IMG/VR virus record: IMGVR_UViG_3300025322_000106
Span: 1 to 33,169 of that record
DNA length: 33,169 bases
Reading direction: 5' to 3' (one strand)
Source of the DNA: a virus
The notes beneath the pieces were generated by a model. The model searched no databases, was not told where the DNA came from, and was given only the letters and a program-made list of their open reading frames with translations. The position numbers were made by a program, and so were the translations under genes. This document shows, one piece after another, positions 5,987-30,761 of this stretch (position 1 is its first letter; the number at the start of each line of letters is the position of its first letter).

Positions 5987-6007
5987 CGGGCGGGATGACC
6001 CCGCCCG
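5987..6007. repeat. Intercistronic GC hairpin at the start of the modification cassette
   Basis: Perfect 8-bp inverted repeat CGGGCGGG (5987-5994) and CCCGCCCG (6000-6007), 5-nt loop, in the gap between the stopper-like gene and the first glycosyltransferase. No T tract follows. It sits exactly at the left edge of the inserted cassette. Confidence 0.75.
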
Positions 6008-6024
6008 CTAGGAGCCAAAGAGCC

Positions 6025-7458
6025 ATGAAAAATCTGAATCCCCAAACACAACAGCCCTATAAAATCCTGTGGTTCGGCGACCTGGTGGCCCCAAGCGGCT
6101 TCGGGCGCATCGGCAACGAGGTCCTGCGCCGCCTGCACCAGCGCGGCTACAGCATCCAGGCCGCGGCGCTTAATTACACCGGCTGGCCGCACGATTTCCC
6201 CTTTCACGTCTGGCCGCTCGGCGGGCAGGATATTTGGAACTCCCTGGTTACGATCGTCAACACGACCCGGCCCGACCTGCTCATTTCCTGCCAGGACTTC
6301 CCCTATCATCAGACGCTATGGAACGCCTGCCGGATCGATTTTTCCCGCGTCAAATGGGTCTGGATTACGCCCATCGACGGGACGCCCGTTCATCCCGACT
6401 GGTTGAAAATGGCCGATTACGCCGACGGCGGGATGGTCATCTCGCGCTTCGGCGTCGAAGCCCTGCGCCAGTCTGGGAAGCGCGCCGCGCTCTGTCATCC
6501 GGGCGTGAACTTGCAGGAGTTCTATCCGGCGGCGGACGACGAAAAAAAGACGCTGCGTGAGAAGGCCGGTTACGACGCGGGCGATTACGTCGTCGGCGTC
6601 GTGTGCATGAACCAGGGCCGCAAGGCCATCCCGCCCATGCTCGAAGCCTTCCACGAATTTGCGCGCGCCAAACCCGAAGCGCGCCTGTTCCTGGACATGG
6701 ACAAGGTGAGTCCGGCGGGTTGGGACGTTCCTACGCTGCTGAAACAAACCGGCTGGACGGAAGCCGAACAGAAGCGCGCAGATTACCGCCAGGATTTGTT
6801 CGAGCGCACGACCGACGCGGCCAGCGGCGCGTCGCCCTTCCACCCGCTGCGCTCTCGCTACGCGCTGATGGATGCGCACATGGTCATCAGCCACCGTGAG
6901 GGCTTCGGCCTGCCGCTGGTGGAATCGATGGCCTGCCGCGTGCCGACGCTGGCGCTGGACTGGTGCAGCGGCCCGGAGATCGTCGGCGAGGGGCGGGGAA
7001 TGCTCGTCAAACGGCTGGCCTACATGGAGCATGGCACCTGGGGCGGCGCGCGCGACGCCTTCCCGGACGTGTCCGATCTGATCGAAAAAATGGAAATGCT
7101 CTACGCCGATCGCGCATTGGCGGCGTACACGGCCGAGCGCGGCTACGAGTGGGCGATCCGGCAGACATGGGACGTGACCGCCGACCAGGTAGAAACTGTG
7201 CTACAATCGGCGTTGAAGCGCGAACGAAAGGACAAACCGAGCCATGAGCCTGCCCCAAGCCCTGCCCCTGACGCCAACCAACTTAGCGATACACGCGGCC
7301 CCGCGAGCCGCCCCGGTGATGGGCGCGAGCCTGAGATTGTCAATCGTGATCCCGGCCTACAACGACCTGAAGGCTCTCATCTTGTGCCTGAAATCGCTGG
7401 TAGCGACGGCGGGCGCGGAGGGGATGGCCGGCCGGATGGAAATCCTGGTGCAGGATGA
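6025..7458 (+). CDS. Family GT4-like glycosyltransferase with unusual C-terminal tail
   Basis: A 477-residue GT-B type glycosyltransferase. The N-terminus KILWFGDLVAPSGFGRIGNEVLRRL is the glycine-rich acceptor-side loop of the fold. The donor side carries FYPAADDEKKTLREKAGY, then VVGVVCMNQGRKAIPPMLEAF, and the E-x7-E motif HREGFGLPLVESMA with Glu292 and Glu300, which binds the nucleotide-sugar in this family. No signal peptide or membrane segment is visible. The ATG at 6025 follows AGGAGCCAAAGAGCC. The normal fold seems complete near residue 395; the remaining about 75 residues are Pro/Gly/Asp-rich and almost entirely overlap the next gene in another frame (7244-7458), which suggests the original stop was lost. 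It probably moves a sugar onto a virion protein or a host glycan. Confidence 0.85.
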   Translation: MKNLNPQTQQPYKILWFGDLVAPSGFGRIGNEVLRRLHQRGYSIQAAALNYTGWPHDFPFHVWPLGGQDIWNSLVTIVNTTRPDLLISCQDFPYHQTLWNACRIDFSRVKWVWITPIDGTPVHPDWLKMADYADGGMVISRFGVEALRQSGKRAALCHPGVNLQEFYPAADDEKKTLREKAGYDAGDYVVGVVCMNQGRKAIPPMLEAFHEFARAKPEARLFLDMDKVSPAGWDVPTLLKQTGWTEAEQKRADYRQDLFERTTDAASGASPFHPLRSRYALMDAHMVISHREGFGLPLVESMACRVPTLALDWCSGPEIVGEGRGMLVKRLAYMEHGTWGGARDAFPDVSDLIEKMEMLYADRALAAYTAERGYEWAIRQTWDVTADQVETVLQSALKRERKDKPSHEPAPSPAPDANQLSDTRGPASRPGDGREPEIVNRDPGLQRPEGSHLVPEIAGSDGGRGGDGRPDGNPGAG

Positions 7459-8149
7459 CGCCAGCCCGGACGTCGACCTGACCGAGATCATCGGCCCGCC
7501 GGCGCAGGTGGCGCGCAATCCGCGCAACCTGGGCTTTGCCGGCAATTGCAATGCAGGCGCGGCGCGCGCCGGGGGCGACGTGCTGTTCTTTCTGAACCAG
7601 GACACGCAGGCGCAGCCCGGCTGGTTCGGGCCGCTTATGGGGATGTTCGACGAACGCGCCTACGTGGGCATCGTCGGGCCGAAACTCGTTTTCCCGCTCG
7701 GCCCGAATGGGACGGGCGCATTACCCGGTTTGACCGCGCCGCGCCCGCCCGCGTATTCCATCCAATCCTGCGGCGGACTCTACGACGGCGGCAAAGGCCC
7801 GTTCCATCGCTATATTGGTTTCGCCGCCGACGATTGGCGCGTGAATATTGCCGAGCGCGTCTCCTGGACGACCGGCGCGGCGCTGGCGATCCGAAATAAT
7901 CTGTTTGCTTCAGCGGGTCTGTTTGATATTGGTTACGGACGCGGCTATTTTGAAGACGTGGATTTGTGCGAGCGCGTGAAACTGCGCGGCTTTGAAGTCT
8001 GGTACTGCCCGGAAGCCGTCTTCACGCATCGAGTCGGCGCATCCAACGCGGCGACGGCGGAAAGTTTCCGCGCCAACTCATTACGCTTCCACGAAAAATG
8101 GGATCGGCGCATTACGCCGGACACCTCGATAATCCATGTGGCATATTGA
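7244..8149 (+). CDS. Family GT2 (rhamnosyltransferase-like) glycosyltransferase
   Basis: A 301-residue GT-A type enzyme. After a short leader comes LSIVIPAYNDLKALILCLKSL, then VQDDASPD, a NLGFAGNCNAGAARAGG segment, FFLNQD with Asp120 as the metal/nucleotide-binding acidic residue, and GYFEDVDLCERVKLRGFEVWY with Glu237-Asp238, the usual catalytic base region of WbbL-like rhamnosyltransferases. The ATG at 7244 has AAAGGA upstream; ATG 7319 is a possible later start that would reduce the 215-nt overlap with the preceding glycosyltransferase. No membrane anchor is visible. Its TGA stop lies inside the -35 box of the HNH gene promoter that follows. Confidence 0.87.
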   Translation: MSLPQALPLTPTNLAIHAAPRAAPVMGASLRLSIVIPAYNDLKALILCLKSLVATAGAEGMAGRMEILVQDDASPDVDLTEIIGPPAQVARNPRNLGFAGNCNAGAARAGGDVLFFLNQDTQAQPGWFGPLMGMFDERAYVGIVGPKLVFPLGPNGTGALPGLTAPRPPAYSIQSCGGLYDGGKGPFHRYIGFAADDWRVNIAERVSWTTGAALAIRNNLFASAGLFDIGYGRGYFEDVDLCERVKLRGFEVWYCPEAVFTHRVGASNAATAESFRANSLRFHEKWDRRITPDTSIIHVAY

Positions 8150-8174
8150 TGTGAGCGCCATAATGTTCTATACT
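8146..8174 (+). promoter_or_regulatory. Sigma70 promoter of the HNH endonuclease gene
   Basis: TTGATG (8146-8151), 17-nt spacer, TATACT (8169-8174). The TGA stop of the GT2 gene (8147-8149) is part of the -35 box. The predicted start of transcription near 8181 lies just before a leader hairpin and 60 nt before the ATG at 8241, supporting that ATG over upstream in-frame starts. Confidence 0.6.
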
Positions 8175-8183
8175 ATAGGAAGT

Positions 8184-8212
8184 GCTCCGGCGATGCGGAA
8201 ACATCCCGGAGC
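8184..8212 (+). other. Leader hairpin of the HNH gene
   Basis: GCTCCGG (8184-8190) pairs with CCGGAGC (8206-8212), then after a one-base bulge GATG (8192-8195) pairs with CATC (8202-8205), loop CGGAAA. It would form at the very 5' end of the transcript from the promoter at 8146-8174. Confidence 0.6.
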
Positions 8213-8240
8213 GTGGCTGAACCTACACGAGAAGTCCAGC

Positions 8241-8954
8241 ATGATTGATTCTATCCCGCATTACAAAACCTGCAAGGACTGTTCCCGATCACTTCCTGCT
8301 ACAACCGAATACTTTTCACCATGCCGGAAGGGTGACAAAGTATGGCTTGCATCATATTGCAAGCCATGTACAGCCGCTCGGACAAGAATTTGGAATGCAA
8401 ATAACCCTGAGCGATCTAAGGCAAGAGCAAATCAGTGGTATCAGGAAAATAAAGAGCAGCATCGAGCGAACGCAAGACGTTGGGCAGCGGCCAACGTAGA
8501 TAAGGTTCGTGCCATTACTTTGAAATGCAAGTGGAAGCATATCGAAAGAAGCCGTGCTTATTCGCGTGAGTATGCCAGAAATCATCGGGAGCAAAAGAAA
8601 GAGGCTGATAAAAATCGCAAGGCTAATAACCCGGAAAGGGCCAAAGAATTATCCCGACTCCGGTATCAGCGAAACCGTGATACCTATCTGGCCCGTACAA
8701 GGAACTACCGCGCACGCAAGCGCGAGGCGGCTGGCACACATACAGCAGCAGATACCAAGAAACAATACACAATGCAAAAGGGTTTATGCTGGTGGTGTAG
8801 TTACGAATTGGGGCAGCAGTACCATGTTGACCATCGCATACCGTTAGCGCGGGGTGGCAGCAATGGCCCGGAAAACATTGTGATCAGCTGCCCGTCCTGT
8901 AATACTTCAAGACGAGACAAACTGCCTCACGAATGGAACGGACGGCTTTTATGA
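8241..8954 (+). CDS. Free-standing HNH homing-type endonuclease
   Basis: A 237-residue basic protein. The N-terminus has a zinc-ribbon-like block (C-K-D-C, about 24 residues, C, then C-K-P-C). A long Arg/Asn/Glu-rich region with repeated NPERxKxxxxxRY-type units follows (NNPERSKARANQWYQENK, NNPERAKELSRLRYQRNR), probably DNA-binding. The C-terminus has the HNH nuclease motif: CWWC, YHVDHRIPLARGGSN, NIVISCPSCN. It is visibly AT-richer than its neighbours, which suggests separate acquisition. It sits between two glycosyltransferase genes without disrupting either, has its own promoter and leader hairpin, and GAGAAG lies before the ATG. Its TGA overlaps the next gene's ATG. It is most likely a selfish endonuclease, not part of the sugar pathway. 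Confidence 0.85.
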   Translation: MIDSIPHYKTCKDCSRSLPATTEYFSPCRKGDKVWLASYCKPCTAARTRIWNANNPERSKARANQWYQENKEQHRANARRWAAANVDKVRAITLKCKWKHIERSRAYSREYARNHREQKKEADKNRKANNPERAKELSRLRYQRNRDTYLARTRNYRARKREAAGTHTAADTKKQYTMQKGLCWWCSYELGQQYHVDHRIPLARGGSNGPENIVISCPSCNTSRRDKLPHEWNGRLL

Positions 8955-9832
8955 CTTCGCTCCGCATCCTCATCACCTGCATCCACTATCCCGTCGCCTC
9001 GGGCCGCTACATGGCGCGCGCCTTCCGGCGGCTCGGCCACGACGTGCAGACGGCGGGCCATTCAACCGGGACAAAAATCTGGGGGATGGAAGTGGACGAA
9101 CGATACGTCTGGAAGCCCGATTGGGAAGATGGCTTTGCTCCCGGAACGCGCCGAACATTCCATCCCGATTTAGTCATTCACGCCGAATCTGCCTATGCCG
9201 GCCATCGGATCAATGGCGTTCCGCTCATCCTGTGGGGCATGGATAACCACGTGCGCGATTATGCTAGCGCGGATTACGACGCTATGTTCTTCGCCCACTC
9301 CTGGGGCGCGCGCTCTTCCGAGCCGAACGCCTACTGGCTGCCGCCGGGTTATGATCCAGAAATGCATACCGACTTGGGCAGGGAGCGCGACATTGACGTG
9401 CTGATAATTGGCTATCCCTACAGCGAACGGGTGGAGATCCTGGCTGCGATGGATGCCAGCGGACTAAAAAATACGGTGGGCATGCTGGGCCCACTCTTCG
9501 ACGAGTACAACGCGCTCTACAACCGCGCCAAGATCGCGTTGGTACGGAGCTCCTACGGCGATCTGACGACGCGCTTTTTCGAGAACATGGCGCAGGGATG
9601 CTGCGTCCTGGCCGATACCGCGCCGGACATTGACCGGCTGGGCTTCATCGCCGGGACGGACTTCTGGCCCTATGCTTCCGCGCCCGAGGCCGTCGAAGCG
9701 GCGCACGCGCTCCTGGTGAATGACCGCTGGCGCTCGCTGGCGGCGGCGGGCAAGGAAAAGGTCAAATCGTACACCTGGGACGCGCGCGCGTTGGAACTCC
9801 TGCGGCGCGTCCGAGAGTTAAAAATAGCATGA
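8951..9832 (+). CDS. CgeB-like GT-B glycosyltransferase
   Basis: A 293-residue protein starting RILITCIHYPVASGRYMARAFRRLGHDV, the acceptor-side Rossmann loop of GT-B enzymes. Further features are FHPDLVIHAESAYAGHRINGVPLILWGMDNH, the domain linker SERVEILAAMDASGL and a donor-side region LYNRAKIALVRSSYGDLTTRFFENMAQGCCVLADTAPDIDRL that matches CgeB/Glyco_trans_1_2 proteins (RxxExxAxGxxxL style). It ends with the common SYTWDARALELL closing helix. ATG 8951 overlaps the HNH stop (ATGA); ATG 8933 is a possible alternative. It overlaps the following methyltransferase by ATGA. It is the third glycosyltransferase in the cassette and of a different subclass from the first two. Confidence 0.78.
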   Translation: MTSLRILITCIHYPVASGRYMARAFRRLGHDVQTAGHSTGTKIWGMEVDERYVWKPDWEDGFAPGTRRTFHPDLVIHAESAYAGHRINGVPLILWGMDNHVRDYASADYDAMFFAHSWGARSSEPNAYWLPPGYDPEMHTDLGRERDIDVLIIGYPYSERVEILAAMDASGLKNTVGMLGPLFDEYNALYNRAKIALVRSSYGDLTTRFFENMAQGCCVLADTAPDIDRLGFIAGTDFWPYASAPEAVEAAHALLVNDRWRSLAAAGKEKVKSYTWDARALELLRRVRELKIA

Positions 9833-10521
9833 AGCTAAATCTCGGCTGCGGACGCGTGATCTTCCCGTTGGAGCGCGGCGCGCCTTCGCCCTATCCCGCG
9901 CATCTGGACCCGCTGCCGGATATTTGCTACGAGCCGGGCTGGGTCAACGTGGACAAATTCCTTATGCCGGGCGTGAACGAACAAATCGACCTGTTCGCCT
10001 TCCCCTGGCTGCGCTCGTCCACCGGCAGTCCCTGGAATGACAACTCTGCCGACGCGATCTATTGCAGCCATCTGGTCGAGCACGTTCCGCACCAGGTGAA
10101 ACTCGTGCGCGCGCTGCCAGCGATCTGGCATAGGATCTATAACGAAAGAGTGGAAAATCTGGACGGCTGGTTCGTGTTTTTCGCGGAATGCTGGCGCATT
10201 CTCAAGCCGGACGGCCTGTTGTACGTGCGCGCGCCATTCGCCACGAGCAACGCGGCGCTTTCCGACCCGACGCACACGCGATACGTCACGCCCGGAACGT
10301 TCTCCTATCTGACCGGCGACAATCCCGACGCGCCGTTCGACTACCATGCGCCGCTCAAGTTCGAGCAGGCCGAGCCGGTGCTGCTGCGTTTCACCGAGGG
10401 CAACGCCGAGATCATCCAGGCCATGCCGCACGCGCTGGCCGAGAAGATGGTCTACCGCTATTTCAACGTGGCCGATGAGATCCGCATCGTGCTGCGGGCG
10501 GTGAAGGGAGAAGAGTCATGA
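9829..10521 (+). CDS. Class I SAM-dependent methyltransferase
   Basis: A 230-residue protein beginning MKLNLGCGR, a clear motif I for SAM binding. WVNVDKFLMPGV supplies the acidic end of strand 2, SADAIYCSHLVEHVPHQ is the motif around strand 4, and AECWRILKPDGLLYVRAPF is the usual motif III strand. This arrangement is that of small-molecule or sugar/O-methyltransferases found in glycan loci rather than DNA methyltransferases (no DPPY or PCQ). The gene is linked by ATGA overlaps to a glycosyltransferase upstream and to the LAGLIDADG gene downstream. It may methylate the sugar added by the neighbouring enzymes; the substrate is inferred from context. Confidence 0.8.
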   Translation: MKLNLGCGRVIFPLERGAPSPYPAHLDPLPDICYEPGWVNVDKFLMPGVNEQIDLFAFPWLRSSTGSPWNDNSADAIYCSHLVEHVPHQVKLVRALPAIWHRIYNERVENLDGWFVFFAECWRILKPDGLLYVRAPFATSNAALSDPTHTRYVTPGTFSYLTGDNPDAPFDYHAPLKFEQAEPVLLRFTEGNAEIIQAMPHALAEKMVYRYFNVADEIRIVLRAVKGEES

Positions 10522-10955
10522 TAACGGAAATAGAATTGTCTTATTTGGCCGGCATTTTTGACGGTGAAGGTTGTGTCTCAACGGCAGGGGGACAGCAGAA
10601 TATGCAGCTCCATTGTAGTGTCGGAAATACAGATCCGAAAATGTTGTTGCCTTTTGAAAATTTGTGGGGAGGAAAGATTACCCGCAATAATATCATACCG
10701 AAGCCAAATGAACGCCCATTCTATCAATGGCATATTTACTCACAACAGGCAGGGATATTCCTTAAAGAGATTTTGCCATATCTTGTGATTAAACATTCCC
10801 AAGCAGCCCTGGGATTACAATTGGTATCTCGTCCTGATTTGCGCCTTATGCGCGGTCATCCAGATATACGAGCCGAAGAATGGAAATTGCGGAGCTGGAT
10901 CTGTGAAAAAATGAAGACACTTCGAGGACAATCATATCATTGGGAACCTAGATGA
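10518..10955 (+). CDS. Single-motif LAGLIDADG homing endonuclease
   Basis: A 145-residue protein with the signature LSYLAGIFDGEGCVS at residues 7-21, where the second acidic residue coordinates the catalytic metal. The rest alternates strands and helices (LHCSVGNTDPKMLLPFENLWGG; PFYQWHIYSQQAGIFLKEILPYL) as in the LAGLIDADG fold. With one motif and this length it should act as a homodimer. It is AT-richer than its neighbours, has GGGAGAAGAG before its ATG, and is joined to the methyltransferase and the radical SAM gene by ATGA overlaps on both sides, so it sits in the operon without an intron. It is most likely a selfish element. Confidence 0.88.
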   Translation: MITEIELSYLAGIFDGEGCVSTAGGQQNMQLHCSVGNTDPKMLLPFENLWGGKITRNNIIPKPNERPFYQWHIYSQQAGIFLKEILPYLVIKHSQAALGLQLVSRPDLRLMRGHPDIRAEEWKLRSWICEKMKTLRGQSYHWEPR

Positions 10956-12232
10956 ATATCTGTCTAGTATTTCCTCGTTCAACTTTTCTCATAGACCCGC
11001 TGGTATATCCACCTTTGGGCGTTTGGTATCTGGCCGCGCAGTTGGAAGCGCAGGGATACGCGACCGATTTCCGCGACCTGACTTGCGACCCGTTTCCCCA
11101 GGACGGTGAATTCGAGCAGGTCTGGATCAGCGCCACCAGCCCGCAGATGCACGAGGTCAGGCGGCTGGCCGGACTCACGCGCGCCTGGGAGAAAAGCGCG
11201 GTCGTCCTCGGCGGGGCTGCGCCCTGGACGAACCCCGATTCTTGCCGCGCTTTGGGCTTCGATGTGATCGTGTCGGGCGAGAGCGACCATCCGCAGACGG
11301 TCAGTCGGATCGTATCCGGGGCCGCGCGGCGCGCAACGACGCTTTCCTTTGCGCCGCCGATCACGCCCGGCCCGCTGGATTGGGCCTTGCCGCCCGTCAG
11401 GAGATGGGACGACAAATATCACGCGACGCTCCACGATCGCGAGGGGCGTCCTCATCGCACGACCACGCTCTTCACTTCGCGCGGATGTCCGATGGCGTGC
11501 GCCTTCTGCGAGTCGGGCAGGAACGGCGTGATCTGGGACCGTTCCGTGCGCTACGAACCCCTCTCCATCGTCGAGGCGCAAATCCGCGAAGCGGTCGAGC
11601 GCGGACACACGGGGCTGATGTACTACGACGACATCCTGCCGCTCAACAAGCCGCGCATGCTCTCCCTCCTGGAAGTGATGAAAAGGTACAGCGTCGTATG
11701 GCGCTGCTTCCTGCGCACGGACGTGATCTCGCACCAGGGCGGCCTGGACTACCTGCGGCAGATGGCCGAGGGCGGCCTGGTCCAAGTGCTGGCCGGAGTG
11801 GAGAGCGCCGACAATCGCATCAAAGCCAACGTCCATAAAGGCACGACCATCGAGCAGGATACGCAAGTCTTAGGCTGGTGTAAGCAGTTGGGCATTAAGT
11901 TCAAAGCGTCCTTCATCCTGGGCCTGCCGGGAGAAGACCGCGAGAGCATGGAGCGCACACGCGATTGGATTCTTACGCACCGCCCCGACCGGGTGGACGT
12001 GAACACGCTCATCCCGTTCCCTGGCACGCCTATGACGCGGCGCGCGGAAGATTATTTGGGTGTAAAATACGATGTGAAATGGGAAGAAGAACTGCCCGAG
12101 GAATTTTGGTTCAAGGGAGCGCGCGAGCACAACGAGTCTATCGTCTCCACCTCGCACCTGACGCGCCAGGAGATCACGGAGTTCCGCGACCGGTTGATGC
12201 AAGACATCGAACGGGAAGGGATACCTTATTAA
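10952..12232 (+). CDS. B12-binding-type radical SAM enzyme
   Basis: A 426-residue protein. Residues 1-110 look like a B12-binding-type Rossmann domain (YPPLGVWYLAAQLEAQGYATDFRDL; SAVVLGGAAPWTN; GFDVIVSGESDH) but lack the DxHxxG cobalamin ligand motif. The radical SAM core has C179-x3-C183-x2-C186 in TSRGCPMACAFC for the 4Fe-4S cluster, then GHTGLMYYDDILPLNK, VLAGVESADNRI, KFKASFILGLPGED and VDVNTLIPFPGTP, the standard B12-radical SAM block series. Such enzymes methylate unactivated carbons or rearrange sugars and lipids. It closes the modification cassette; the TAA overlaps the next ATG. Methylation or modification of the virion glycan is the likely role, inferred from neighbours. Confidence 0.87.
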   Translation: MNICLVFPRSTFLIDPLVYPPLGVWYLAAQLEAQGYATDFRDLTCDPFPQDGEFEQVWISATSPQMHEVRRLAGLTRAWEKSAVVLGGAAPWTNPDSCRALGFDVIVSGESDHPQTVSRIVSGAARRATTLSFAPPITPGPLDWALPPVRRWDDKYHATLHDREGRPHRTTTLFTSRGCPMACAFCESGRNGVIWDRSVRYEPLSIVEAQIREAVERGHTGLMYYDDILPLNKPRMLSLLEVMKRYSVVWRCFLRTDVISHQGGLDYLRQMAEGGLVQVLAGVESADNRIKANVHKGTTIEQDTQVLGWCKQLGIKFKASFILGLPGEDRESMERTRDWILTHRPDRVDVNTLIPFPGTPMTRRAEDYLGVKYDVKWEEELPEEFWFKGAREHNESIVSTSHLTRQEITEFRDRLMQDIEREGIPY

Positions 12233-23642: not shown

Positions 23643-24056
23643 TCAAGCACGCTTGCGACCCGCCGCGTAAAACCGCAGCTTGCCCCTGCCGCCGCCCTGC
23701 GCGTGCTTGTGGCAATGCGTGGCGGAGTTCGAGATGATCGTATTGCACGCGGGCGCGGCGCACCGCTTCCGCAGGTTGTAATTGCGCGCCCGCGCGCGCT
23801 TGAGCATCTCCCCGGTCGAGATGGGGCGCGGGCCGCGCCGGAAGCGCGTGCCGTCGGCGTTGCAGTGCAGATTGTAGAGCGCGTCGAACTTGCACGGCAG
23901 GCCGTGGTACACGTCGCCCCGGTCACCGTTGCGCCCGAACGGATGCAGGATGCCGTCCATACATTCCGGCGCGATGCTCCCGGCGCGCTCGCAGGCGCAC
24001 GCGGAGCGGAGCGCGCAGGGGTTGCGCCGATGCTTGCGTCCGTTAGTCGCGGCCAT
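23643..24056 (-). CDS. Cysteine/histidine-rich zinc-binding protein
   Basis: A 137-residue protein starting at ATG 24056, overlapping the end of the DNA methyltransferase by 14 nt. It has several candidate metal ligands: CALRSACACE, APEC, GLPCKFDALYNLHC, then RCAAPACNTIISNSATHCHKH (C-x4-C, H-C-x-H). The central HHGLPCKF...NADGTRFRRG block looks like a degenerate HNH/treble-clef or a one-off zinc fold. Basic C-terminus (GGRGKLRFYAAGRKRA). No family is certain. Neighbouring methyltransferase suggests a DNA-related task, but this is only context. Confidence 0.55.
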   Translation of the reverse strand: MAATNGRKHRRNPCALRSACACERAGSIAPECMDGILHPFGRNGDRGDVYHGLPCKFDALYNLHCNADGTRFRRGPRPISTGEMLKRARARNYNLRKRCAAPACNTIISNSATHCHKHAQGGGRGKLRFYAAGRKRA

Positions 24057-25509
24057 AGCACTGGACGATCTCGAAGTCAATCTTAAGGTGCGGGTACTTC
24101 TTTGAGTGCAGGCGGCGGAAGAACGAAGCGCACCACTTCTCCATCGCCTTGTCCGTCCCGTCCAGGCCGAGCTGCTTGAGTCCTTTTTGTTCCACTTGCC
24201 AGCAGACATGGACGTGCAACAGCCGGAAGCCGACCGACTCGCAGACCTGCCGCCAGTAGCCGGGGAAGTCCACGACGGCATGGTTTCGGACGAATGGTTT
24301 CAAAACCCAGCATGCATGGGCGCTTGGGCGCAGCGCGGCGCGCGTCTGCTCCAGGATCAGGCGACTCGCAGACCAAAATGTATCGCCCTGCATCGCGCCG
24401 ACTTGTGATTCAGATTTTCCATAAGTGCCATTGAACATTCCCCGCGCTCCGATATTGTCAGGTGATACAAATACATCGGGTCGCTGCGTTTTGAACTCCC
24501 CGCGCGCATAGCGTTCCGCTTTCCGCTGCCGCGCCTCGTCGGCGTCATTCCCGGCATTGATGGACGCCTCATAAGGCGGAGAGCTCACCGCCGCGTCCAG
24601 CGCGCCATCGGGCAGCGCCGCGAGCTGGCCGGTGCTTGCGCCGTAGCCATTTCGCCGGCTGCTGCCTTCACGGACGCGGCGCTCGTCTTCGATAGCGTCC
24701 AGGCGCGGATGGCCGCTGTCATGTCCAGGCGGCCCAGCGTAGGGCGGCGACGAGATGGCGGCGTCGAGTCGGCCTTCGGGCATCTGGCCCATCTGACCCT
24801 CGGCCTGTCCATATCCTGCCAAATTTCGCGGCACGCTTTGCGCTTGCCCGCCCCAGGCTCCGGTTTGGTCAGGATGATGTCCGCCGCTCACATAAGGCGG
24901 TGAGGCCACGCACGCCGCCGCACCCGACTCGGCGAGCACGGCCAGCAGGCGGCGGCTGTCGCCCTGGACGATGCGCGCCGTCCCGCGCTGAGCGAAGCTC
25001 CCGTTGAAGCGGTTCTCCCAGCGCGGGATGTTCCCCCGGTAGACGTGCGCCGCCTGATGCGGGATGCGCCGCTCGATGACCCTGCCCGTCCGTTTATTCA
25101 TCTTCGCCTTCGGCGCGAGCGCCGTCTCGCACGACGGGCATAATGCGCGCATCTCGCGCAACAGGCCGATGAACTCCTGGCGGCCCTGATAGCGCCGCCA
25201 GAAGTCGCGGTCGAAGCCTGGGCAGGTATAGGATTCCTGGGCCAGCTCGATAAAGTCCGGTTCAAGCTCCATGCCGACGAAGTCCATCCCGAACTGCATC
25301 GCGTGGAAGGCGAAGCCGCCGATCCCTGCGAAAGGATCAATGACTCGATTTCCAGGCTTGAGCCAGACCTCGTCCAGGCAGTGGCGGTAAATGCGCTCGG
25401 CCAGGGCGAAACTCACCTTCGCCGGGTGCCGATACGACTCGGCTAGCAAGATATTTTTAGGCCAGGGTTTGTAATAACCATGCCATGAGTCGAAGCCGAT
25501 CGCGTTCAT
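24043..25509 (-). CDS. DNA methyltransferase (N4C/N6A type) with three SPPY motifs
   Basis: A 488-residue protein. Motif I is VIDPFAGIGGFAFHAM, with Asp58. The catalytic motif IV SPPY occurs three times: VASPPYVSGG (203-206), ISSPPYAGPPG (254-257) and VSSPPYEASIN (310-313), each followed by a variable Gly-rich loop (residues 209-305) and preceded by LDAA-type segments. Order motif I then SPPY suggests a gamma-like arrangement; SPPY with a serine favours N4-cytosine methylation, though N6-adenine is possible. A zinc-ribbon-like C-PSC...site (ALCPSCETALAP) lies about residue 130. ATG 25509 has AGGGTGAAGG nearby; an in-frame upstream extension is rejected. The TGA of the upstream frame overlaps this ATG (ATGA). 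It likely protects phage DNA from host restriction or is an orphan regulator. Confidence 0.82.
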   Translation of the reverse strand: MNAIGFDSWHGYYKPWPKNILLAESYRHPAKVSFALAERIYRHCLDEVWLKPGNRVIDPFAGIGGFAFHAMQFGMDFVGMELEPDFIELAQESYTCPGFDRDFWRRYQGRQEFIGLLREMRALCPSCETALAPKAKMNKRTGRVIERRIPHQAAHVYRGNIPRWENRFNGSFAQRGTARIVQGDSRRLLAVLAESGAAACVASPPYVSGGHHPDQTGAWGGQAQSVPRNLAGYGQAEGQMGQMPEGRLDAAISSPPYAGPPGHDSGHPRLDAIEDERRVREGSSRRNGYGASTGQLAALPDGALDAAVSSPPYEASINAGNDADEARQRKAERYARGEFKTQRPDVFVSPDNIGARGMFNGTYGKSESQVGAMQGDTFWSASRLILEQTRAALRPSAHACWVLKPFVRNHAVVDFPGYWRQVCESVGFRLLHVHVCWQVEQKGLKQLGLDGTDKAMEKWCASFFRRLHSKKYPHLKIDFEIVQCYGRD

Positions 25510-25598
25510 GCCTTCACCCTGAGCAGCTCCATGAGCCGCGCCTCGGTGCGATCGCGCGGCGGCAGCGTCGGCAGGCCGAGCGCGGGCTTCGGAAACGT
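25506..25598 (-). pseudogene. Detached 3' end of the upstream gene (after an in-frame TGA)
   Basis: After the TGA at 25599-25601 the same frame continues for 30 codons as gene-like sequence (TFPKPALGLPTLPPRDRT, then EARLMELLRVKA) and ends in a TGA that overlaps the methyltransferase ATG, the same ATGA coupling used by most genes here. It has no start codon of its own except a late internal ATG. The TGA lies directly after a palindromic element (25602-25622), so the upstream gene was probably longer once. Confidence 0.5.
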
Positions 25599-25997
25599 TC
25601 ACACTTGCCCCGGGCGCAAGTGCCGGGGTTTCTTCACCTTGCGCAACTTCCATCCGCAGTGTTCCGAGTTCCAAAATGCCGCCGGAAGTGCCGCGCTGCG
25701 CCACTTGCGGCTCTGCGCGCTCGGTTTCCACTCGAACTTTATCATGTCGTTCTTGGTCAAAATGATGCGCGCCATGCCTGGGCCGCGCCCGTCGTTGCTG
25801 TAATAGACACTTGCACCTGGCGTCCCCCGCCGTAGGGCGGGTGATGCAGGTGTGCCGTCTTGTACGATCTCGATCAGTAAATCTCGTCCTGCTTTGTTAA
25901 TCGTGAAATTTCCGCGCTCATACAGATTTACTGTCTCAGGCTTGTCTGTAAGTTCTGGGAACTGCCTGTGTTTTTCTTCACCGGATATGAAACGCAT
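25599..25997 (-). CDS. Hypothetical protein, probably truncated by a palindromic element
   Basis: A 132-residue protein with GGAG ten bases before ATG 25997. It reads like a small beta-rich DNA-associated protein: residues 15-45 ELTDKPETVNLYERGNFTINKAGRDLLIEIVQDG, residues 75-100 MARIILTKNDMIKFEWKPS. Two GC-rich palindromes lie inside: one near 25814-25852 (coding TPASPALRRGTPGASV) and one at 25602-25622 (coding the final HLRPGQV). The second ends at the stop TGA, and the frame continues beyond it. No family is recognised. The original protein was likely longer by about 30 residues. Confidence 0.5.
   Translation of the reverse strand: MRFISGEEKHRQFPELTDKPETVNLYERGNFTINKAGRDLLIEIVQDGTPASPALRRGTPGASVYYSNDGRGPGMARIILTKNDMIKFEWKPSAQSRKWRSAALPAAFWNSEHCGWKLRKVKKPRHLRPGQV
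25602..25622. repeat. Palindromic element at the 3' end of the truncated gene
   Basis: CACTTGC (25602-25608) and GCAAGTG (25616-25622) with loop CCCGGGC, flanked by a further CCGGGG that can pair with CCCCGG. It is inserted in frame at the end of the gene and is followed directly (minus strand) by the premature-looking TGA. Confidence 0.6.
25814..25852. repeat. Nested palindromic element inside a coding region
   Basis: Outer arms CACCTG (25814-25819) and CAGGTG (25847-25852); inner arms CCCGCC (25826-25831) and GGCGGG (25836-25841) around GTAG. The core GTAGGGCGGG resembles the GTAGGGACGGGG element at 33068-33089. It stays in frame and encodes an Ala/Pro/Gly/Arg run. Confidence 0.6.
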
Positions 25998-25999
25998 TA

Positions 26000-26695
26000 T
26001 CAATTATCTCCGCTCCCGTTCTCCCTGCTGGCCCTGACCACCACCCGCGCCACGCCCGCCCAGGCGCGGCCCGTGAGCGCGACGAAACGCGGATGATCGG
26101 CAGGATGGCGCTCAAGATAGAGCGCCGTTTCGCGCGCGCTCCAAATCTCCATCACGCGCGCGCCGGAGTCATCGTCCGCCCCCCACTTCGCATCCGCAAG
26201 CACGTCGGCAGCCAGGTGCAGCGCGTCGCGCAGCCGCGCCGGCGCGCGGTCGATCTCGCCCAGAATCTCGGAGTGCCACCGGCGGAGCTTGCCTGAGAGC
26301 AGCTCCGCGTCCGCGTCCGCATCCGCGCCGCCGCCCGCCATGTCGTGCAGCTGCGCGGCGAAGGCTTCCAGCGTCGCGCCGGGAGTCACGGCCCATGTCT
26401 CCATCAATTGAATGACATCGGACACGTGGATACGATCCAGATGGCGCGCCGCGACCAGGTAGAATGAATAGGTCAAGTCTCCCATCACCCCGATTATGTT
26501 CTGGCGGAATTCCGCAGCTCTTGCCCAATCGCGTACCGTGCGAGGGCTGCGACGCTCGTAGGCGGCGATGCGCTCGTCCCACTGCGGGTATCCGGCTTCG
26601 CGCGCTTCCAGGCAGAACTCGCACAGTGCCCAGGCGCCGTCGTCCTTCGACTGGTGGGCGGCCTGGAGCTTGAGTCGGAACTCGTTGTCATTCAT
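26000..26695 (-). CDS. Hypothetical HTH-containing early protein
   Basis: A 231-residue acidic protein. Residues 40-65 (RIAAYERRSPRTVRDWARAAEFRQ) look like a helix-turn-helix of the kind 'S-x-R-T-V-R-D-W', and residues 70-100 (YSFYLVAARHLDRIHVSDVIQLMETWAV) are helical. A GADADADAEL repeat around residue 125 comes from a GCGTCC-type microsatellite. The C-terminal third is helical again, ending WAGVARVVVRASREN. The gene is joined by ATGA to the nuclease-like gene upstream. It may act in replication or regulation; no family is certain. Confidence 0.62.
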   Translation of the reverse strand: MNDNEFRLKLQAAHQSKDDGAWALCEFCLEAREAGYPQWDERIAAYERRSPRTVRDWARAAEFRQNIIGVMGDLTYSFYLVAARHLDRIHVSDVIQLMETWAVTPGATLEAFAAQLHDMAGGGADADADAELLSGKLRRWHSEILGEIDRAPARLRDALHLAADVLADAKWGADDDSGARVMEIWSARETALYLERHPADHPRFVALTGRAWAGVARVVVRASRENGSGDN

Positions 26696-27036
26696 CGCCT
26701 GCTCCTTTTGCGCAGAGTGGACGCGTCAATTTCCTTGATCTCGATGCCGTGGACTGCCAGCATCAGTTTTTTCTTCAGGCGGTAGGCGATGGTCAAAAAT
26801 CCTTTGACATCCTCCACGCAATTCCTGGCCTGTTCAAGGTTGACATACCAAAAATCCGCCTCGTAAACGCAAATCTTGTGACCGTTGACCGTGATCGGAA
26901 AGCGCGGATGAACAGTCAGATCCGCGATTTTCCCCGCCCGCTCCAGCAGCTTCAGCTCGCCATAGCGCGCGGCCTCGGCCTGCGACGCGAAGCGGTGGCC
27001 GTCGAGCGTGACGGGCTTCGCCCCGTATTTGCTCAT
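26692..27036 (-). CDS. DUF1064-type phage nuclease-like protein
   Basis: A 114-residue protein reading MSKYGAKPVTLDGHRFASQAEAARYGELKLLERAGKI then LTVHPRFPITVNGHKICVYEADFWYV and VEDVKGFLTIAYRLKKKLML. This order (SKYxxKxxxxDGxxFxSxxEAxRYxxLxxL, Y.ADFxY, EDVKGxxT.xYxxKxK) is the DUF1064 signature, with the acidic E-D-V-K triad like a PD-(D/E)xK nuclease active site (Asp in ADF, Glu-Asp and Lys in EDVKG). In other phages such proteins act near recombination/replication genes, possibly as resolvase or endonuclease. ATG 27036 overlaps the upstream stop. Confidence 0.82.
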   Translation of the reverse strand: MSKYGAKPVTLDGHRFASQAEAARYGELKLLERAGKIADLTVHPRFPITVNGHKICVYEADFWYVNLEQARNCVEDVKGFLTIAYRLKKKLMLAVHGIEIKEIDASTLRKRSRR

Positions 27037-27305
27037 GGCCGGCAGCTTTCCGCTTCCGGGTCCTGCCAGAAGCCGAAGAAGCAGTTGCCCAGGATCAGGC
27101 CGAACCTGCCCGGCTGAATGGCGGCGGCGCGGCGGCGCGTGTGCCAGCGCGTGTACGTCCCGACGATGCACCAGCCGTCCACGCTGAACAGCCCGGCGCA
27201 GTCCGGCTCAGCGTGGTATTCATCCAACGCGGTATTGGTTTCGGCGGTCAGCGTCCAGCCGCGCCCGACGACCAGCGCGCCCTCGGTGTTGACATAGATG
27301 CTCAT
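27033..27305 (-). CDS. Small hypothetical protein in the early operon
   Basis: A 90-residue protein with an excellent GGAGGACTT site before ATG 27305. It reads MSIYVNTEGALVVGRGWTLTAETNTALDEYHAEPDCAGLFSVDGWCIVGTYTRWHTRRRAAAI then LGNCFFGFWQDPEAESC, a beta-strand start with several Trp/Cys and a basic patch. No family is recognised. Coupled by ATGA on both sides within the operon. The strong ribosome binding site suggests it is expressed well. Confidence 0.58.
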   Translation of the reverse strand: MSIYVNTEGALVVGRGWTLTAETNTALDEYHAEPDCAGLFSVDGWCIVGTYTRWHTRRRAAAIQPGRFGLILGNCFFGFWQDPEAESCRP

Positions 27306-27991
27306 AAGTCCTCCCGCATTGCGCGCAATAAAATCGTGCCGATGAATTCCGTATAGGCCGGCGGGATGGCCTCGGTCAGTTCGCGCTGGAGCATCCAATC
27401 AATCCCCATCGCCCATCCGATCTCGGCGACCGTGGAGCGCGGTCTGTGGTTCTTCCGCTTGGCGCGCTGCCCGTCCCCGCCCCCGGAGCACAGCACCGGG
27501 ATTTCAACTCGGCGACTTTGCCCGCCGATCATGGCCCAGGTCGCGCCGTAATGGTGCGCGCAGGGCGGCGTGAGCTCGAATTGCTCCGGCCAAATCTCGA
27601 AAAACCTGTGCCGCTCGATGGGCAGGCCTAAAGCCGATCCGCACAACATGAGCGGGTTGACGAGCAGGGCCCGCGCGCCCGCCACGTTCTCGATGACGTA
27701 GGGCCTGCCGAGCTCCCGCAATGCATCCCGGACGGGCGCGATCAGGTCGGGATGCGATGCGCGGTAGTCTTCGGGCGTGGCTTCGCTGTAGAACTGGCAC
27801 GGGGGCGAAGCGTGGACAGCGTCGAACTCGCGCCCGTGCGCAGCCAGGTATTCCAGCGCATCGGCCGGGACGAAATCGAACGGATATCGCGGCTGGGAGT
27901 AGCGATCCACGCCGACGATCTCCGAGAAACCGGCGCGATGATAACCGACCGCCGCCCCTCCGGCGCCGGAGAACAGGTCGAGCAATCTCAT
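27302..27991 (-). CDS. Short C5-cytosine DNA methyltransferase
   Basis: A 229-residue protein with clear C5-MTase motifs: LLDLFSGAGGAAVGYHRAGF (motif I), SPPCQ with the catalytic Cys65, VIENVAGA (ENV 101-103), and a QxRxR-like IERHRFFE (about residues 124-131). The normal motif IX/X region appears near GGQSRR and AIPPAYTEFIG. The protein is short, with only a small target-recognition region (about residues 140-190: TPPCAHHYGATWAMIGG, CSGGGDGQRAKRKNH). It would methylate C in a short context, most simply to protect phage DNA. It overlaps the gene upstream by ATGA and the following gene likewise. Confidence 0.88.
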   Translation of the reverse strand: MRLLDLFSGAGGAAVGYHRAGFSEIVGVDRYSQPRYPFDFVPADALEYLAAHGREFDAVHASPPCQFYSEATPEDYRASHPDLIAPVRDALRELGRPYVIENVAGARALLVNPLMLCGSALGLPIERHRFFEIWPEQFELTPPCAHHYGATWAMIGGQSRRVEIPVLCSGGGDGQRAKRKNHRPRSTVAEIGWAMGIDWMLQRELTEAIPPAYTEFIGTILLRAMREDL

Positions 27992-28206
27992 GCGCCCATC
28001 CCCTCCGGGAGCGCGTCCGGCGCGGCTTCGCGCAGCACGCGCTCCCACGCGGCCTGCGCGCGCGCCGCCTCCACGCGCAGGCGAAAGGCGCGGGCGACCA
28101 GGCCGATAGGCACGAAGCCGCGCAGCTGCTTTTCACGTCCGACTCTCTCTTCGGCAAGACGGGCTTGCTCCATCAGGTCAAGGATTGCTTGCGGTAAGTT
28201 TTCCAT
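27988..28206 (-). CDS. Small helical hypothetical protein
   Basis: A 72-residue protein, nearly all helical (ENLPQAILDLMEQARLAEERVGREKQLRGF; ARAFRLRVEAARAQAAWERVLREA). It overlaps the end of the HNH-like gene upstream by 29 nt and the 5-cytosine methyltransferase ATG by 4 nt. It could be a small regulator or a dimerising accessory. No family is recognised. Confidence 0.5.
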   Translation of the reverse strand: MENLPQAILDLMEQARLAEERVGREKQLRGFVPIGLVARAFRLRVEAARAQAAWERVLREAAPDALPEGMGA

Positions 28207-28573
28207 TCTGCCAATTCCTTTTTGTCAATTCCGGCGTGATGATGGAATGCCAAAGGCCGTGACAATCATCGCACAAATCTTCAGTCGGCCAATCATCGGG
28301 ATTGATGCCGTGTTCACGCGCCAAAACGACAGGAAAATAGTGATGCGTCTGAGCATATGGCGCGCCGCGGCGCGCGCAATATTTGGGAGCCATTGATCCG
28401 GCGGCCCAGGGCAGCGAGTCGAAGTTTATTTTATTCAAGGGGATGAACTTACCGTCCCACATCTGCAAGCACAAGTCACATTGCCGGAAAGCGACGTGAT
28501 GGCCGTCCGACTCGATACGCCTGACTGTGGTAAAGGTCGTCAAGCTTCCTTGACCGCAACGGATACAATTCAT
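28178..28573 (-). CDS. HNH-like zinc protein (probable nuclease relative)
   Basis: A 131-residue protein with GGAGG shortly before ATG 28573. It starts MNCIRCGQGSLTTFTTVRRIESDGHHVAFRQCDLCLQMW, a zinc-ribbon (C-x2-C, C-x2-C). A second part reads KYCARRGAPYAQTHHYFPVVLAREHGINPDDWPTEDLCDDCHGLWHSI, matching the HNH-like order H-H-Y-F-P, D-D-W, C-D-D-C-H-G-L-W-H, with Cys and His pairs in treble-clef spacing. It is less canonical than the two HNH genes and has no own promoter. It sits in the operon beside the 5-cytosine methyltransferase and primase genes; it may be a nuclease of a small modification set or a nucleic-acid-binding protein. Confidence 0.58.
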   Translation of the reverse strand: MNCIRCGQGSLTTFTTVRRIESDGHHVAFRQCDLCLQMWDGKFIPLNKINFDSLPWAAGSMAPKYCARRGAPYAQTHHYFPVVLAREHGINPDDWPTEDLCDDCHGLWHSIITPELTKRNWQNGKLTASNP

Positions 28574-29031
28574 TCCGGCCTCCGCTTGGGATGGTCCCAA
28601 GCTTCCAGCGCCGCGCCGCGCTCCTGGGCGACTTTCGCCCACCAAAGTTCTTCGTCCGCCGCGCTACGCTGGCATACCGGGATCGTCGGCGCGACCATGC
28701 GCCCGCGGTAGCGTTCGGGAGGCGGCGGCGGGACGAAGGCGCGCAGGGCGCGGCGGCCTGCGGCGATGTGGACGCGCGCGCCCTGTTCCCCCGTGCGGCA
28801 GACGATCTTTTCCGCGTCGTCCAGTTTGTGGCGCAATTCCTTCTCATTCCACGCCGGGCTGCAACGATTGGCGTTGTACCATTGGAGCGCGTCCCAAGCC
28901 TCGACGCGCTCCAGGCCGAAGCGGAAGCATTCGCAGGCCACGCGCAGGGTCGCGTTGTGGCCGCCGGAGCCTGAGATGGCCGCCGGAAGCTTTTCTAAGT
29001 AAGCCAACATCCTCGAATAAAGTTCCATCAT
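28570..29031 (-). CDS. Primase-associated (PriCT-like) protein
   Basis: A 153-residue protein beginning MELYSRMLAYLEKLPAAISGSGGHNATLRVACECFRFGLERVEAWDALQWYNANRCSPAWNEKELRHKLDDAEK. The order 'LPAAISGSGGHNATLRVA', 'FGL', 'W-YNxRCxPxW-EKELxxKL' is the helical module commonly found attached to phage and plasmid primases/helicases. The second half is unordered and proline-rich with RYRGRMVAPTI and WDHPKRRPE. ATG 29031 and 29028 are both possible; no clear ribosome binding site. It follows the prim-pol/helicase gene and the origin-like tract, supporting a replication role. Confidence 0.75.
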   Translation of the reverse strand: MMELYSRMLAYLEKLPAAISGSGGHNATLRVACECFRFGLERVEAWDALQWYNANRCSPAWNEKELRHKLDDAEKIVCRTGEQGARVHIAAGRRALRAFVPPPPPERYRGRMVAPTIPVCQRSAADEELWWAKVAQERGAALEAWDHPKRRPE

Positions 29032-29071
29032 AAGCCAATCAAACAGTTCTCACATTCCGCCCGCTTTTTGA

Positions 29072-29110
29072 CTTTTTCCCCGTCTCTCTTAGAGAGAGAC
29101 GGGGAAAAAG
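29072..29110. repeat. 18-bp perfect palindrome with 3-nt loop
   Basis: Left arm 29072-29089 (starts CTTTTTCCCC, ends TCTCTCT), loop TAG (29090-29092), right arm 29093-29110 (AGAGAGAC then GGGGAAAAAG). All 18 pairs match. The run of T lies at the 5' side and A at the 3' side on both strands, so neither strand would give a U tract after the stem; a cruciform or RNA-duplex element is more likely than a terminator. It adjoins the GATACCAG repeats. Confidence 0.9.
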
Positions 29111-29117
29111 CCGGGTT

Positions 29118-29216
29118 GGTACCACTTGATACCATATACCAGAAATAATGCGACTGTATGCAGTTTGACCGGTATCATCACAGTTGATACCAGTTGATAC
29201 CAGTATGCCTGGTATC
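29118..29216. repeat. GATACCAG iteron-like repeat tract (candidate origin)
   Basis: Direct copies of GATACCA(G) at 29128-29134, 29186-29193 and 29196-29203, the last two within tandem CAGTTGATAC units (29181-29200) followed by CAGT. Inverted copies GGTATC (29171-29176) and CTGGTATC (29209-29216). Degenerate copies GGTACCA (29118-29124) and TATACCAG (29135-29142). The intervening DNA is AT-richer than the surroundings. It lies between the prim-pol/helicase stop and the primase-associated gene, a common place for phage origins or repressor/partition sites. Confidence 0.65.
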
Positions 29217-29243
29217 CCTTCTTTTTTGGCTCAGCCAAGATCG

Positions 29244-30761
29244 TCAATCGAGCGGGTAGAGCAGGAAACCGCCGCGATTGCCTTTCTTCTCCCCCAACTG
29301 CTTGCCTCCCCTCATGTGCCGGATCATGTCAAGCACCTTGTTCCGGTTGCCGCCGATGCGCTCGTAAATCTGGTTTGCCGACATCTCCCCGAACTTTTGG
29401 AGCTCCCCCAGGATCAAGGTTTGCAGCTCAGAGTCGGGCAAGTCCGCGTCCGCGTCGGCGGCGGCAGTTTCGGACGGCCAGAAACGCGCGGTGACCAGTT
29501 CGTGCGATGGGTCGTTCTCGAAAGCGAACTTGGCGGAGAAGGCTTTTATCATCGGCCCGCGCGTCTTGGTCGGCGTGACTGTCACGGTCTCTTCCTCGCG
29601 CGTGATGAGCAGGGCCAGGTCGAGCTTGGCCTCGATGGTGCCGTGGCCGCGAAGGGTCTCGCCTGCGCGCGTCGCCAGGCCGTTGCTCTTGCGCTGGTGA
29701 TGGATGACGACGACCGCCGCGCCGGTTTCTGCCAGCCAGCGCAGCCCGGACATGGGGCCGTTCATCTCGGCGGAGTTCTCGTCCGCCTCGCCCGCGATGA
29801 CATTCAAATTGTCAATCACGAGCAGGCGCACGTCGCGGTCTACCATGCGCGCGGCCAGGGCGCGCACCGACTCGCCGTCCCCGGCGGCCAGGATCGGCTC
29901 CGGCATGCTGACATAGTAAAACGGCGCGGCATCAGAAATTCCGCGCGCCCGCGCCAGGGCCGCGAAACGTTCGTGCGTTCTTCGCTGGCCATTGTCAAAG
30001 TCAAGCCACAGGACTGCGCCCGGCGCAGTGACGAGGCCGGTCATCGGATTGTCGGGCTGCGTCAACCAGCGATAGCCGGCAGCCACGCTCACGGCCATAT
30101 CCGAAAGAAACATGCTTTTGAGCGTGCCCGGCGCGCCGTACCAGATGGATAGGCTGCCCTCGGAGATGATCCCCTCTACGATCCATATGAGCGGGTCTCG
30201 GGGCGCGAAGGCGTCCTTGAGCGTGAACACCTGCCAGGGATCAGGCTCGCGGGTGAGCAGGTCTAGGATGGGCAGGGGCAGCGGCTCAATCGCCACGTCG
30301 TCCGACCAGGCATAAGGTTTTCCGTTTGGGTGAATACTAGGGGGCAGAACCACGTAGCCGCCCGCGCCGCGCACATCAATGCCGGGCGCGAGCTTGCCGG
30401 CGCTGTTTTTGATTTTGCAATCCTGGGGAATTCTGAAAAGGAGATGGCGGCCGCCGCCGCCGGTCAGAGAGATGGCGGTCATCGGATTCAAACCATATCT
30501 TTGCGTGAGTGTTTCCCACTGCGTCAAGCCGTCTTGCTCGCCGTGCTTGTCAAGATCAATGGCGATCAGGCCGGACTTGCCGCAGTTGAGTCCGATGTTG
30601 GCCTGCGGCGCCTTCTCCCACCAGCGGCGGATGATGTCGATTCGTATCGTCGCATCGTTCAACCCGTGCGGCGTGAGCGGTGTCTTATCACGCGGTTTGA
30701 TCGGGAAGACGTACCATCCCGCTTTGGCGTACTCTTCAGCCTGTTGGCCTAACTCAGACAT
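29244..30761 (-). CDS. Primase-polymerase / RepA-like helicase fusion
   Basis: A 505-residue replication protein. Residues 1-160 are a bifunctional prim-pol (AEP) domain: GWYVFPIKPRDKTPLTPHG, NIGLNCGKSGLIAIDLDKHG with Asp69 and Asp71, LTGGGGRHLLFR with His106, and VRGAGGYVVLPPSIHPNGKPYAW. Residues 190-400 are a RecA-like AAA_25 helicase core: GAPGTLKS Walker A (209-216), LLVID Walker B (313-317), VVVIHHQRKSNG, and arginine-rich RGPMIKAFSAKF. The C-terminus (ELQTLILGELQKFGEMSANQIYERIGGNRNKVLDMIRHMRGG) looks like a winged helix. A DADADL microsatellite links domains. ATG 30761 has AAGGG eight bases upstream, an excellent promoter 200 nt further and a folded leader. Confidence 0.9.
   Translation of the reverse strand: MSELGQQAEEYAKAGWYVFPIKPRDKTPLTPHGLNDATIRIDIIRRWWEKAPQANIGLNCGKSGLIAIDLDKHGEQDGLTQWETLTQRYGLNPMTAISLTGGGGRHLLFRIPQDCKIKNSAGKLAPGIDVRGAGGYVVLPPSIHPNGKPYAWSDDVAIEPLPLPILDLLTREPDPWQVFTLKDAFAPRDPLIWIVEGIISEGSLSIWYGAPGTLKSMFLSDMAVSVAAGYRWLTQPDNPMTGLVTAPGAVLWLDFDNGQRRTHERFAALARARGISDAAPFYYVSMPEPILAAGDGESVRALAARMVDRDVRLLVIDNLNVIAGEADENSAEMNGPMSGLRWLAETGAAVVVIHHQRKSNGLATRAGETLRGHGTIEAKLDLALLITREEETVTVTPTKTRGPMIKAFSAKFAFENDPSHELVTARFWPSETAAADADADLPDSELQTLILGELQKFGEMSANQIYERIGGNRNKVLDMIRHMRGGKQLGEKKGNRGGFLLYPLD

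Follow-up and report, generated by a model that had tools for sequence, protein, structure and literature searches.

Which function is served by the noncoding stretch that separates two replication genes in the leftward replication operon of a viral contig of 33,169 bases (hereafter the window, meaning the whole stretch of DNA analysed)? This gap of 212 bases (29032..29243) holds short repeats and a palindrome, and an earlier note on this DNA had proposed it as an iteron origin with a hairpin, possibly bound by the helicase or by a primase-associated protein. We consider it likely, with a probability of about 0.78, that the gap is the phage replication origin, at which the helicase encoded upstream would bind the iterons by its C-terminal domain and the hairpin would be the opening/priming site.

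Anatomy of a candidate origin between two replication genes

Reading leftward, the gap starts directly past the stop codon of the helicase gene and ends at the gene of a 153-aa protein. It is AT-richer than its surroundings, as had been claimed, with a GC content of 0.46 (0.43 in the repeats) vs 0.63 in the window overall. Allowing for up to two mismatches, the motif TTGATACCA has seven matches in both orientations, which span 29116 to 29218 with a 10-bp spacing in places. Three of these are exact and lie on the plus strand (29126..29134, 29184..29192 and 29194..29202), the second being 10 bp from the next copy. The remaining sites are TTGGTACCA (29116..29124, plus strand, one mismatch), which is nearly palindromic itself and is overlapped by a minus-strand match at 29117, and the minus-strand sites ATGATACCG (29170..29178) and GGGATACCA (29210..29218), each with two mismatches, the latter being the inverted partner of the 29194 site, with which it forms an 8-bp stem. 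The five or more repeat copies in both orientations described in the earlier note stand as to orientation, with seven TTGATACCA-like sites, but the exact octamer GATACCAG is found three times and not five, namely twice on the plus strand (29186 and 29196) and once inverted (29209); the shorter GATACC is present in 5 copies. No other 110-bp stretch of the window is as dense in TTGATACCA matches (7 vs at most 3 elsewhere), and the repeat score of 18 for the region compares to a maximum of 7 among 3000 dinucleotide shuffles.

Next to the repeats lies a perfect hairpin (29072..29110), the 18-bp palindrome reported previously, with 100% complementary arms (29072–29089 and 29093–29110) and a 3-nt loop. 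Its tip reads CTCTAAGAG on the helicase-coding strand, and no other palindrome in the window combines arms of 11 bp or more with a loop of up to 8. Given its high stability (the whole gap, folded as single-stranded DNA, has a z of −8.0 vs shuffles) and its position 3′ of a gene, the hairpin could be a terminator or an RNA stabiliser behind the helicase gene, in which case the repeats would be secondary. However, a T tract after the stem is absent on both strands, no intrinsic terminator was called at the hairpin by our scan, the Rfam search gave no matches, and arrays whose motif follows a helicase domain, as described below, would be left unexplained, so that we regard a transcript end as very improbable.

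The two flanking genes are those named previously, a PrimPol plus AAA_25 gene on one side and a gene with a weak PriCT_1 match on the other. The first (29244..30761, minus strand) encodes a 505-aa protein composed of a PrimPol domain (aa 8–162, Pfam PF09250, E 2.9e-49) and a RepA-like AAA_25 helicase domain (aa 182–360, Pfam PF13481, E 7.7e-33). In an AlphaFold2 model, the helicase part has its best structural match among helicases in RSF1010 RepA (1nlf/1g8y, E 4e-11 to 7e-11, TM by target 0.68); a search of the PDB by sequence gave no matches; the PrimPol part was poorly modelled, the alignment having few relatives there. The modelled C-terminus is predicted to contain H443–457, E459–461, H462–469, H473–485 and E500–504, and for aa 443–505 (pLDDT about 80) this element order is similar to that of the winged helix predicted in a related helicase family, termed below the swap family. 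According to this model and by analogy with that family, we propose that the C-terminal domain of the window helicase (aa ~443–505), the coding part of which occupies 29247..29435 on the minus strand, reads the iterons.

The next gene (28570..29031, minus strand) encodes the 153-aa protein, whose match to PriCT_1, a primase C-terminal domain, is weak (E 0.0016, below the curated cut-off). A stretch homologous to this protein lies behind PrimPol within a single ORF in the related locus L014, and in L016 the homologous stretch starts a longer replication protein; no comparable gap was found among the PriCT relatives inspected. In L014 (4455–6185), PrimPol and PriCT form one polypeptide, and the window has the helicase domain and the candidate origin between them. 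Compared with L014, the primase module thus seems to be split in the window, as judged from the sequences. No RepC-like initiator was found among the neighboring genes searched in Pfam and PHROGs, which covered part of the ORFs. The same leftward operon also encodes two predicted DNA methyltransferases, of the N4/N6 and C5 types (24043–25731 and 27302–28048), and a DUF1064/Holliday-junction-resolvase-type protein (26692–27171).

Two further assemblies of 46,531 and 35,895 bases carry the same virus, with 99.9–100% identity over most of the shared part. Positions 2050–33169 of the window align to 45851–14732 of the 46.5-kb sister contig (G001) and positions 1–585 to 908–10 of that contig at 88–90%, so that the contigs overlap at both ends. 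This pattern would fit a genome of ~47 kb that is circular or circularly permuted and contains a diverged stretch close to the start of the window. Since these two near-identical assemblies were the only other copies of the window array found, the gap itself could not be aligned. Analysis of the GC skew, which had been suggested as a check, was uninformative to negative and gives no support for an origin: the skew of the window tracks gene direction, and the cumulative skew of the 46.5-kb contig has no extreme at the array, its extremes lying elsewhere. In the sister contig, repeat-rich windows at 2151–2576 and near 12676 score as high as the array or higher. The former, which lies outside the window, is by eye an apparent tandem duplication of ~50 bp with a repeat score above that of the array, so that a high value of this score, taken by itself, lacks specificity.

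With respect to the host, all relatives of the window helicase from the cellular genome collection (six loci) come from assemblies of Chloroflexota/Anaerolineae, and among plasmids the closest one is a Candidatus Promineifilum breve phage-plasmid. These relatives give a lead, and Chloroflexota are the likely host group of the virus. Elsewhere in the window, the structural gene region (5995–12232) is by eye broken up by other ORFs, which resemble glycosyltransferases, a methyltransferase, an HNH nuclease and a radical-SAM/B12-type protein, and AT-richer, insert-like stretches lie at 8.0–9.0 and 10.5–10.9 kb.

Repeat arrays behind AAA_25 helicase genes

The recurrence of the layout was surveyed in 91 AAA_25 loci with enough downstream sequence, which form 39 clusters at 60% identity, by scoring the 250 bp after the stop codon against 100 shuffles (floor p = 0.0099). 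Short repeats, both direct and inverted, formed a significant array in 32/39 families, or in 27/34 when the five families that had prompted the idea were left out, and their motif varies between families; the other seven of the 39 scored low. The median array score was 20 after the helicase stop codon compared to 1–3 at more remote offsets, which reached 2.5 kb in both directions, and scores of at least 10 were reached in 77% of cases after the helicase vs 3.5% at 659 ends of other ORFs in these loci. The comparison therefore favors the iteron origin with a hairpin put forward in the earlier note, given that most of the independent AAA_25 families have an array after this gene.

Within the lineage of the window helicase, all inspected relatives (11 loci, comprising viral contigs and five Chloroflexota assemblies) have an array together with a hairpin, and the motifs differ between lineages; with its three exact sites, the window array has fewer than most relatives. 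A scan for two neighboring TTGATACCA units showed that an unrelated phage family (three loci) shares the motif, with six GATACC and four GGTATC clustered directly behind its own AAA_25 helicase gene. Otherwise, exact-motif scans of viral contigs mostly gave repeats in unrelated places (seven loci are examples), which were set aside as uninformative.

Arrays whose motifs differ greatly were also found right after the AAA_25 stop codon in the cultured marine Roseobacter phages CRP-831 (motif TTTATAC) and CRP-811 (TTTGTAG), phage-plasmid III of Candidatus Promineifilum breve (CTGTACA) and a 17-kb Klebsiella plasmid (GTGCGGC). In a further set of annotated records, the array reached the shuffle floor in Idiomarinaceae phage 1N2-2, Caenibius p1, pMRAD08, a Methylobacterium currus plasmid, an E. 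coli O145 plasmid and, weakly, phage IME_EC2; two further annotated records were borderline. The same layout is present in the complete circular phage-plasmids Ca. Promineifilum breve pIII, pMRAD08, pKp_Goe_795-4, Caenibius p1 and the M. currus plasmid, and no other annotated initiator was found in the two circular phage-plasmids inspected whole. Five annotated AAA_25 phages or phage groups (Mycobacterium Acadian, Corynebacterium EmiRose, Jerseyvirus, Kagunavirus and Vibrio 19E33.1) have no array after the gene, and the array-behind-helicase rule, as read from these sequences, thus holds commonly but not in every case. Both Acadian and EmiRose have a phage-encoded DNA polymerase I beside the helicase.

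The surroundings of the arrays bear on two alternative functions. The repeats could form an operator, by which a repressor or activator controls the downstream genes or by which the helicase itself regulates them via its C-terminal domain. Short inverted half-sites such as GATACCAG-N5-CTGGTATC look operator-like, the winged helix is also a regulator fold, and the array lies upstream of the next gene of the operon. However, whereas the gene before the array was the helicase in all 39 loci, the largest ORF behind it belonged to 35 different families and lay on the opposite strand in 13, and no promoter-like site was found in 28900–29400 of the window by a scan restricted to the sigma-70 type. 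Together with the domain dependence of the motif in the swap family, this makes an operator function quite unlikely. Alternatively, clusters of short repeats beside replication genes are typical of parS and inc sites, and the relatives include phage-plasmids, as would fit a partition or incompatibility site (a parS-like centromere). Yet the array goes with the helicase gene and not with a ParA/ParB pair, no annotated ParB was noticed beside the array in the inspected regions, and the motif follows the helicase C-terminal domain in the swap family, which leaves a partition site with hardly any probability. The variety of the genes behind the arrays also means that a special binding role for the PriCT protein, the primase-associated candidate of the earlier note, is unsupported.

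A natural exchange of iterons and C-terminal domains

The question of which protein reads the repeats could be addressed in the swap family, the members of which have nearly identical helicases (90% identical core) and different iterons. Three loci carry the motif ACGGAATGG, seven carry GACAAATGG and two carry a third motif, ACGAAATGG. For the ACGGAATGG and GACAAATGG groups, the identity of the helicase core was 0.918/0.898 within groups and 0.904 between them, and that of the flank downstream of the hairpin was 0.843/0.840 within and 0.844 between, whereas the identity of the C-terminal domain was 0.753/0.744 within groups and fell to 0.484 between them. The C-terminal winged-helix domain of this family follows the iteron motif; the helicase core and the downstream flank do not. 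Similarly, among pairs with a core identity of 0.88–0.97, which are non-independent, the C-terminal identity was 0.84 for the same motif (n = 36) and 0.52 for different motifs (n = 24).

The residues that discriminate between the motif groups are concentrated in the C-terminal domain (28/29; Fisher's p 2e-17, a descriptive value that ignores relatedness). In the AlphaFold2 model of this domain, a helix is followed by a strand pair, two further helices and a wing, and 18 of the discriminating residues fall in helix 2, helix 3 and the turn between them, where they make up 18/27 variable positions of the helix-turn-helix. In a Foldseek search, many of the matches to the domain were winged-helix domains, with weak E-values (best 0.13). 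Taken together, these comparisons suggest that the C-terminal tail of the helicase itself recognises the iterons, and of the binders considered in the earlier note the helicase is favored, by co-segregation of motif and C-terminal domain in a family related to, and distinct from, that of the window.

As the C-terminal domain and the array adjoin in the DNA, they may have been transferred jointly without any binding. The reader of the origin might then be another initiator, or a protein of the host, with domain and array co-segregating merely as exchanged neighbors, and the replication protein of pRN1 indeed showed no specific binding to its downstream stem-loop (PMC4234260). This alternative is unlikely: the exchange ends right behind the iterons, neither the hairpin core nor the downstream flank follows the motif, and the discriminating residues cluster in the helix-turn-helix.

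The hairpin behaves differently from the iterons. In the swap family, members of both motif groups share one and the same hairpin core, GGGCGCGTAAGTCTTAATACGCGCCC, although the flanking iterons are exchanged. Since this core is constant across swapped iterons, its reader seems not to be the C-terminal domain, and the sequences point to a division of labor with iterons for the C-terminal domain and the hairpin core for another activity. By analogy with RSF1010 (described below), we propose strand opening or priming as this activity. Many arrays contain a hairpin close to their downstream end. It is flanked by iterons in inverted orientation, and its tip is AT-rich (for example CCCTTTAGGG, CCTATAGG or CTATAAG, compared to CTCTAAGAG in the window). 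A TA step is found at the center of the best palindrome in 26/32 arrays, and only 20/32 arrays have a best palindrome that surpasses every one of 20 shuffles. Long hairpins similar to that of the window, accompanied by few iterons, are also seen behind the helicase genes of the Enterobacteria phage IME_EC2 (downstream of 2662 in the locus analysed) and the Serratia phage Susuwatari (downstream of 3679), with the tips CTCTTATAGAG and CCTCTAGAGAGG, respectively.

A proposed mode of initiation and its relation to known replicons

We infer the following sequence of events at the window gap. The PrimPol/RepA-type helicase would bind the TTGATACCA iterons behind its own gene via its C-terminal winged-helix domain and assemble there as a ring, and in this form it would open the AT-richer DNA. 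On the exposed strands, the 18-bp palindrome could then form a hairpin (or cruciform). At this structure or close by, both strands would be primed by the PrimPol domain, which may act together with the PriCT protein encoded next in the operon. These first primers would serve a host or phage polymerase, and the gap would thereby act as the origin.

The layout is known from a few mobile elements, the nearest functional match being SaPI rep/ori. There, the iterons lie directly downstream of the helicase gene and are recognised by the C-terminal domain of the helicase, which is accompanied by a primase (PMC7581432); the SCCmec helicase Cch2, of 3′–5′ polarity, behaves like SaPI Rep and has a putative origin (PMC7581432). 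In the window, the iterons are likewise immediately downstream of the helicase gene, and reading by the C-terminal domain is suggested here by co-segregation in the related family. In contrast, the SaPI and SCCmec helicases are of the Rep/Cch (MCM-like) kind, that of the window is an AAA_25 protein with the RSF1010 RepA fold, and many AAA_25 arrays hold a hairpin.

A second parallel is the arrangement of pRN1, the orf904 product of which combines PrimPol, an SF3 helicase and a C-terminal winged helix in one protein, with a stem-loop directly 3′ of the gene that is needed for replication (PMC4234260). The Bordetella phage BIP-1 has a stem-loop behind a PrimPol-SF3-winged-helix protein, and the authors of that study noted the pRN1 layout in phages (PMC4234260). 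The window protein similarly has PrimPol and, according to its model, a C-terminal winged helix, with a stem-loop 3′ of its gene; however, pRN1 and BIP-1 have an SF3 helicase and a large stem-loop without iterons, as opposed to AAA_25 with the RepA fold and a hairpin plus iterons. Because the helicase is of the RepA/DnaB kind, the locus can be assigned to neither the SaPI nor the pRN1/BIP-1 kind.

The oriV of RSF1010 (IncQ) is served by the hexameric RepA, by RepC, which reads the iterons, and by the primase RepB′, which starts at the short stem-loops ssiA and ssiB once these are exposed by RepA (PMC4234260). The window shares with it iterons and, by family and fold only, a RepA-type helicase. 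The three separate proteins of RSF1010 would be replaced by a fusion of reader, helicase and primase, as we propose, and its two ssi sites, by analogy, by one symmetric hairpin. The alpha protein of phage P4 also unites primase, helicase and an origin-binding winged helix that binds repeats in one polypeptide (PMC4234260), as is proposed here for the window protein; P4 uses a TOPRIM primase, in contrast to the PrimPol PF09250 and RepA-type helicase found here. The RepA-like initiator of mycobacteriophages was not used as a precedent, its helix-turn-helix being N-terminal and its origin repeats not having been found (PMC7157519).

According to our best reading, the working principle resembles that of SaPI rep/ori, pRN1 and RSF1010, and the difference is an SF4 RepA-type helicase as the proposed origin reader. 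For this helicase family the layout has apparently not been described before; a search of the literature accessible to us found no description of a coupling between iterons and C-terminal domain for RepA-type helicases, which is weak evidence of absence. Beyond the window, we consider it somewhat more probable than its opposite that these loci belong to a class of origins widespread among phages and phage-plasmids, where a hexameric SF4 DnaB/RepA-like helicase recognises its own origin via a fast-evolving winged helix and iterons directly behind its gene, both exchanged as a cassette, while a separate, slowly changing, AT-tipped hairpin serves all specificities as the opening/priming site.

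If this is true, the origins of many uncultured phages and phage-plasmids would be readable from the genome as a repeated 7–10-mer behind the AAA_25 stop codon, and RepA/DnaB-like helicases would be loadable at an origin without a separate initiator. Natural domain swaps would be at hand for testing specificity, and for hosts that are hard to work with, such as Chloroflexota, the arrangement may yield small replicons.
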